Shown piece by piece: positions 11,593-12,477 of a stretch of 64,000 nt of DNA. The DNA lies in contig NZ_CP047593.1 of assembly GCF_009905215.1 (NCBI RefSeq), positions 2,050,900 through 2,114,899 on the forward strand, read 5' to 3'. The notes beneath the pieces are model-generated. The model was given only the letters and a program-made list of their open reading frames with translations. It searched no databases and was not told the DNA's origin. The position numbers and the translations under genes are program-made. The stretch is from Tichowtungia aerotolerans. Lineage in GTDB: Bacteria > Verrucomicrobiota > Kiritimatiellia > Kiritimatiellales > Tichowtungiaceae. The stretch's first letter is position 1; the number at the start of each line of letters is the position of its first letter.

Positions 11593-12477
11593 ATGGCTTT
11601 TGATCCGGCAAAGCATCATCGGCGGTCGATTCGGTTGAAAGGCCACGATTATTCGGGCGGCGGGCTCTATTTCATCACGCTGTGTGCCCATCGCGAATTC
11701 ATTGCAGCGGCGGGGGCGACATGCATGTCGCCCGTACGGGAAATTATTGCGGAAGAATGGATGCGGTGCGGCGAGGTGCGCGATGATGTGTTTCCCGGTG
11801 AATTTGTTGTGATGCCCGATCATTTTCATGGATTGATCAAAATTCGTCCCGGCCAGTCCGAATTAGGACATGTCATCGGTTCATTTAAAGCCGCAGTTTC
11901 ACGGCGAATCCGCGGTAGGGGCGACTCGCAAGTCGCCCTCTCTTCCGACACCGCCCCGAATGTGCGCATCTGGCACCGCAATTATTATGAAATGATCGTC
12001 CGCACGCCCGAAGCCGCCGAAAACATTCGCCAGTACATCCGCATGAACCCGTGGAAATGCATTCAGAATTTTGGCAACGGGCTGCGCGGCATGGGAAACC
12101 CCGCCCTGTGGAATGCCGAAAAACTCGGCGTCCTGTGTTCGCGCGTCGGGGCGGCACGCATGCCGCCCATTCCCGATGCTGCTGTTTATCTCGGCGGCTT
12201 CCATTCCCCGCCCGAAAAGCAAATCCTCGAAGAGCTTCTGAAGCGCCGCGCCAAAATCATCATCTGCCCCGCTTGGGATTTGGGATCTATACGGGCGACA
12301 TGCATGTCGCCCCTGCAAGAAAACCGCCTGCTCATTTTGGAAATGAAAAACCGCGATGGAAATTTGGCTGCCGCCGAAGCCCGCAACCGCTTCGTCATTC
12401 AAAACGCCGACCGCCTCTACACGCCCCTCATCACTCCCGGCGGCATGTTAGACCGGCTCCTGCGGGAGCATGGGTAG
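11593..12477 (+). CDS. REP-associated tyrosine transposase (RAYT, Y1_Tnp / TnpA_REP type)
   Basis: 294 aa. The Y1-transposase core has the HUH motif in VVMPDHFHGLIK (His77, His79) and a catalytic Tyr at about 148 (NIRQYIRMNPWKC). RAYTs act on REP hairpins, which carry a GTAG-type tetranucleotide beside a palindrome. About 130 extra C-terminal residues (AKIIICPAWDLGSI, ENRLLILEM) form a second domain. Four GC-rich hairpins of 20 bp lie in the coding sequence, read as GATCMSPV, RGDSQVAL, GAARMPPIP and RATCMSPL. No other IS genes are near. Core catalytic residues are intact, so the gene may be active. Confidence 0.9.
   Translation: MAFDPAKHHRRSIRLKGHDYSGGGLYFITLCAHREFIAAAGATCMSPVREIIAEEWMRCGEVRDDVFPGEFVVMPDHFHGLIKIRPGQSELGHVIGSFKAAVSRRIRGRGDSQVALSSDTAPNVRIWHRNYYEMIVRTPEAAENIRQYIRMNPWKCIQNFGNGLRGMGNPALWNAEKLGVLCSRVGAARMPPIPDAAVYLGGFHSPPEKQILEELLKRRAKIIICPAWDLGSIRATCMSPLQENRLLILEMKNRDGNLAAAEARNRFVIQNADRLYTPLITPGGMLDRLLREHG
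11714..11733. repeat. REP-like hairpin 1 inside RAYT
   Basis: Perfect 20-bp palindrome GGGCGACATGCATGTCGCCC, identical to hairpin 4; in the other strand it is preceded by GTAC. Confidence 0.85.
11915..11938 (+). repeat. REP-like hairpin 2 inside RAYT, with GTAG head
   Basis: GTAG (11915-11918) then GGGCGACT-CGCA-AGTCGCCC (11919-11938). Confidence 0.85.
12149..12168 (+). repeat. REP-like hairpin 3 inside RAYT
   Basis: GGGCGGCA-CGCA-TGCCGCCC, preceded by GTCGG; same CGCA loop as hairpin 2, with compensating stem changes. Confidence 0.8.
12293..12312 (+). repeat. REP-like hairpin 4 inside RAYT
   Basis: GGGCGACATGCATGTCGCCC, exact repeat of hairpin 1 but in the opposite flank context (ATAC upstream). 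Confidence 0.85.

Follow-up and report, generated by a model that had tools for sequence, protein, structure and literature searches.

In-frame REP-like hairpins in the gene of a RAYT–DprA-like fusion protein from Tichowtungia aerotolerans

The gene considered here lies within a 64-kb window, the whole stretch of Tichowtungia aerotolerans DNA that was analysed, and the host genome itself is complete in one contig of 3,882,676 bp. From its modelled structure, the 294-residue product is best described as a fusion of a REP-associated transposase (RAYT, or TnpA_REP) with a DprA-like domain. As a first-pass annotation of the DNA had claimed, REP-like hairpins lie in the reading frame of the transposase gene itself: four perfect hairpins, each with an 8-bp stem and a 4-nt loop, all in-frame inside the one ORF. 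The features of the locus are as follows.

11593..12477, + strand: RAYT (TnpA_REP)–DprA-like fusion gene; ORF of 294 amino acids, assigned from Pfam, NCBIfam and the 4ER8 fold
11714..11733, − strand: hairpin 1; site 1 loop, residues 40–46 (GATCMSP); head GTAC on the minus strand; loop in the AlphaFold2 model
11821..11829, + strand: HUH motif H77-F78-H79; H77 and H79 invariant; aligned with HMH of 4ER8
11919..11938, + strand: hairpin 2; site 2, HUH–Tyr interval, residues 108–115 (RGDSQVAL); head GTAG
12034..12036, + strand: probable catalytic tyrosine Y148; invariant; aligned with the DYIYINP motif of 4ER8
12055..12474, + strand: DprA/Smf-like Rossmann domain, residues 155–294; VIA-align Z 12–15; stand-alone homologues
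12149..12168, + strand: hairpin 3; site 3, DprA-like domain, residues 185–191; no head (GTCG); loop 183–197
12293..12312, + strand: hairpin 4; site 4, DprA-like domain, residues 232–239 (RATCMSP); head ATAC

The ORF product matches Pfam Y1_Tnp above the cut-off (1.4e-6) and NCBIfam REP_Tyr_transpos at 2.3e-18, although the score of the latter, 66.5 bits, does not reach the curated cut-off of 80. The AlphaFold2 model (mean pLDDT 83) comprises a HUH domain and a C-terminal Rossmann domain, the first of which matches the fold of E. coli TnpA_REP (4ER8) in structure comparison. The HUH and Tyr residues are intact, as the annotation had it, in that H77, H79 and Y148 are invariant among 38 aligned homologues. 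From the alignment with 4ER8, the catalytic tyrosine is most likely Y148 and not the YY at 131–132, its counterpart in the E. coli DYIYINP motif being the residue which we take to be the nucleophile Y115. The host genome holds one RAYT of this family, together with other Y1 transposase genes. No close relative was found on plasmids or viral contigs, nor in phages, where there was one weak N-terminal match.

The C-terminal half is best matched by fold. Residues 155–294 of the model align with ShosA (8ZVA) at a VIA-align Z of 15.1 and 2.2 Å over 139 residues, and with the DprA proteins of S. pneumoniae (3UQZ) and H. pylori (4LJR) at Z 12.4 and 12.2, respectively. Like DprA/Smf and ShosA, therefore, this half has a Rossmann fold, and unlike them its sequence stays below the Pfam cut-off; the domain alone gives no convincing Pfam match. 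Stand-alone homologues of ~145–160 amino acids occur in Kiritimatiellales (L232, L233, L234, L236 and L238) and match Pfam DNA_processg_A at 1e-4, also below the cut-off. It is because of the fold match together with these stand-alone intermediates that the C-terminal half is identified as DprA-like. Its CSR and RNR sequences resemble what we take to be the GSR and RNR motifs of DprA and, by analogy, it may bind single-stranded DNA; a separate, true DprA is encoded elsewhere in the host genome. As far as searched, the fusion is confined to Kiritimatiellota and a few MAGs, the full-length family having been found by genome scan in Pontiella and relatives and in a few MAGs under other names. A typical Kiritimatiellota RAYT–DprA also occurs in a MAG labelled Deltaproteobacteria (L103), through mis-binning or transfer.

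Hairpins 1 and 4 are one and the same self-complementary 20-mer, GGGCGACATGCATGTCGCCC, an identity which the first-pass annotation had already recognised. It had further described the other two, GGGCGACTCGCAAGTCGCCC (hairpin 2) and GGGCGGCACGCATGCCGCCC (hairpin 3), as having the same stem with a CGCA loop; the loop is indeed common to both, but the stems are unlike (GACT/AGTC versus GGCA/TGCC), and both are unlike the stem of the 20-mer. Allowing up to three mismatches, the 20-mer is found four times in the 64 kb against 0.01 expected from shuffles, and each hairpin, as a single-stranded DNA 24-mer, folds at −9.3 to −11.5 kcal/mol (z −3.9 to −4.9). A canonical GTAG head stands on only one of the four, as had been observed, and this counts against an explanation in which the hairpins are cognate substrates. 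In the AlphaFold2 model all four fall in loops or at loop edges, hairpin 2 in a low-confidence loop (109–126) and hairpin 4 just before and into a short helix (235–242). Hairpins 3 and 4 lie inside the DprA-like domain, and they hardly lengthen it.

Within the host genome the class is confined to this gene. The pattern GGGCGRCN6GYCGCCC has four matches in the 3,882,676 bp, all of them in the RAYT gene, and the reversed control pattern has none. A covariance model (R1) built from 27 RAYT hairpins gives seven matches at E<0.05 across the genome, all on the four hairpins, on one or both strands, and none outside the gene. A REPtron arrangement, with REPs of the class flanking the gene, is thus not seen outside the ORF, and the runaway insertion that had been suggested is contradicted by a genomic complement of four copies in a single gene. 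A further, second class of REP-like element in this genome has a 5-nt loop, GGGCANNCCTYGTGGNTGCCC; four copies of it (at 697984, 700016, 2581741 and 2582224 of the genome) stand in two similar prophages, near the genes for portal, protease and major head protein, and one variant, at 711099, stands ~11 kb from one prophage pair of copies. The idea that this is the same class as the RAYT hairpins was rejected, since stem and loop both differ.

The association of hairpins with RAYT genes extends to the relatives. Matches by tblastn, including weak ones to other Y1 proteins, were obtained in 35 of the 43 Kiritimatiellales genomes examined, and 41 of the 100 distinct R1 matches across the 43 genomes fall in RAYT genes, which make up 0.03% of the DNA and in which 0.03 matches would be expected. 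This corresponds to a ~1,300-fold enrichment, a figure biased upward by the derivation of the model from RAYT hairpins, and it fits the self-targeting proposed in the first-pass annotation. Another 54 of the 100 matches lie elsewhere. At 79 RAYT loci selected by their protein, 61 kb of RAYT ORFs contain 136 GGGC-hairpins and 375 kb of flank contain 42, or 2.21/kb against 0.11/kb, a 20-fold difference in density. Outside Kiritimatiellota, 13 of a sample of 15 RAYT loci (Thermus, Geobacteraceae, Gallionella, Elainella and others) have an in-frame hairpin, each with its own sequence, at about the same loop between HUH and Tyr, and in seven cases it is repeated exactly or nearly just outside the gene. 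Related RAYTs without the hairpins, for which a search had been suggested, also exist: several homologues, including L104, L111, L116 and L130, have the hairpin absent or decayed, and the number per gene ranges from 0 to 5, at varying sites.

Some of the matches outside RAYT genes are in-frame in other genes. In hydF, a hydrogenase maturase gene named from sequence, a GGGCGAC hairpin occupies one loop in three Pontiellaceae genomes (L249, L252 and L253) and is decayed in a fourth (L250); the copies that carry it are two residues longer than most hairpin-less genes, and it is missing from most relatives, the host genome included. A type I restriction HsdR-like gene likewise has in-frame hairpins (1946–1965 in L069; 235–254 and 1243–1262 in L082), one of them at a position that two genomes roughly share.

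In the alignment of 38 genes, 88 of 89 hairpins are located in five loops that separate conserved blocks, the remaining one lying outside them. Site 1 follows the first strand and site 0 the HUH motif, site 2 lies in the HUH–Tyr interval, and the C-terminal half contains sites 3 and 4. Each hairpin adds ~10–12 amino acids at sites 1 and 2 and ~2–3 at site 3, the median length at site 4 being unchanged; in the host gene, hairpins 3 and 4 coincide with an equal number of other codons in the nearest homologue. Since sites 3 and 4 are of nearly equal length with or without a hairpin, plain insertion does not explain them, and either replacement or an ancient, decayed hairpin is needed. ERAAFAPGVRE, a sequence common at site 4, resembles the translation of a decayed hairpin. 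A candidate for one-step replacement is provided by L020 and L022, which are 90% identical and differ by about seven bases within one hairpin, the flanks being identical and the length unchanged. Comparison of the loci yielded no case of a hairpin insertion with an empty counterpart at strain level.

The way in which the copies vary bears on what they are. Stem pairs covary, with 99.1% paired and 18 double-changed cells against 4.2 in shuffles, and hairpins are on average 1.43 apart within a gene but 4.17 apart when different genes are compared site by site (permutation P 2e-4, in a test that controls the shared ancestry of genes only partly). The hairpins of site 2 occur in both orientations and must therefore reflect more than one event. 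Within RAYT genes, hairpins also occur as head-to-head doublets and as in-frame tandem arrays, the latter running to three to five units in L099/L051 (Pontiella sulfatireligans), L108, L125 and L121. That the hairpins are fixed conserved codons, shared with unrelated RAYTs that lack matching REPs, was considered and rejected on the pairwise covariation, the gene-specific sequences (in many cases the same as those of REPs close by the gene) and the greater likeness of copies within a gene.

The phenomenon itself, presumed unusual in the first-pass annotation, is real and is already published: subclass 2.4, equivalent to RAYT group 4 of Bertels (PMC6006769), has tnpA_REP genes containing REPs that keep the frame, most of them in the HUH–Tyr interval (Quentin et al. 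2018, PMC6006769). The host RAYT resembles this subclass in its in-frame REP between HUH and Tyr (hairpin 2), and further points of likeness are REPs whose stem starts with three G-C pairs at its base and the occurrence of some 'double-foot' REPs (PMC6006769). In contrast, subclass 2.4 proteins have no C-terminal extension of the core and REPs flank their genes (PMC6006769), whereas the host RAYT has a 140-residue DprA-like domain, no flanking REPs, and hairpins in that domain also. E. coli TnpA_REP and REPtrons are similar in the HUH/Y1 fold and in GTAG-headed hairpin substrates; E. coli REPs, however, are extragenic, numerous and bulged, and the E. coli enzyme is without a DprA domain. Rickettsia palindromic elements sit in varied genes and are not known to have a dedicated RAYT. 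They and the intragenic REPs of Opitutus terrae (PMC3733652) are comparable as palindromes in-frame inside protein genes, and differ in that the main gene to harbour hairpins here is that of the transposase. In the openly accessible article texts that were searched, no description was found of a DprA fusion of a RAYT or of REPs in such a domain, nor of a genome with one REP class confined to the RAYT gene. What looks new, then, is the RAYT–DprA fusion and the presence of hairpins in its DprA-like domain.

The explanation which we favour, and to which we give a little better than an even chance, is that the hairpins are REPs of the RAYT–DprA's own class which have settled, and been retained, in tolerant loops of the gene that encodes it. 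By analogy with E. coli and other TnpA_REP enzymes, the protein would recognise single-stranded hairpins with a GTA(G/C) foot, cut beside them and rejoin the strands. New copies would then arise near or in the RAYT gene, made by the RAYT itself with a cis bias, either through insertion or through site-to-site copying within the gene. Only copies that are in-frame and in a loop would survive, leaving the protein unharmed, and such renewal would keep the hairpins of one gene alike and those of different species different. Although cutting and joining of REPs by TnpA_REP takes place in vitro, we are aware of no case in which a REP was seen to transpose. Single-stranded REPs are recognised by the enzymes from E. 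coli, S. maltophilia and Marinomonas, which cleave at an adjacent CT (or CA); strand rejoining is reported, and the GTAG foot helps to choose the cut (PMC8266576). With a GTAC foot, cleavage by the S. maltophilia enzyme is abolished, which counts against the favoured explanation, and the Marinomonas cut is redirected to GA or GT (PMC8266576). It is because GTAC and GTAG are the main feet among RAYT hairpins, and because of this published role of the foot (PMC8266576), that the hairpins are taken as cognate REPs.

Alternatively, the gene could have come from a REP-rich genome with REPs already inside it, nothing having moved in the host. The absence of other copies in the host genome and of REPs adjoining the gene would agree with such a transfer, as would the differing neighbourhood (no adjoining gene is common to relatives' loci) and a closest homologue of 76% identity. 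Yet the gene does not stand out from the window in GC or GC3, none of the relatives searched is rich in REPs either (up to ~13 exact copies per genome), and perfect stems, two of them identical, speak against long decay, such that we regard this history as unlikely.

A regulatory role, in which selection has kept the hairpins because the RAYT, by binding them in its gene or mRNA, limits its own expression, would account for the recurrence of in-frame hairpins at the HUH–Tyr loop in many phyla, each of its own class, for stems kept paired by double changes, and for an mRNA that folds better than shuffles (z −4.0), hairpins 1 and 4 pairing at long range. The variability in number and site is, however, too great for a fixed operator, homologues with absent or decayed hairpins are at odds with it, none of the four host hairpins overlaps the start region, and the same hairpins occur in unrelated genes. 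Autoregulation is accordingly rated as quite unlikely. Somewhat more doubtful again is the suggestion of self-archiving, namely that the fusion writes its hairpin class over, and not only between, the codons of its own surface loops, the gene having become the last substrate reservoir after genomic REPs died out. Unbiased insertion followed by biased loss, with REPs landing anywhere and RAYT loops being unusually tolerant, is very improbable since, although it suits the loop positions, the in-frame hairpins of hydF, hsdR and other genes, and the intragenic REPs published for many genes (Di Nocera et al. 2013, PMC3733652), intergenic DNA should tolerate REPs at least as well and holds no copy in the host genome.

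How REPs spread is an unsolved problem. With own-class REPs in the RAYT gene, enzyme and substrate stand in one sequence, and the species-matched pairs would thereby constitute a natural record of their co-change and a compact system for testing it. The fused DprA-like domain, in turn, suggests a link between the processing of REPs and the handling of incoming or replicating single-stranded DNA.
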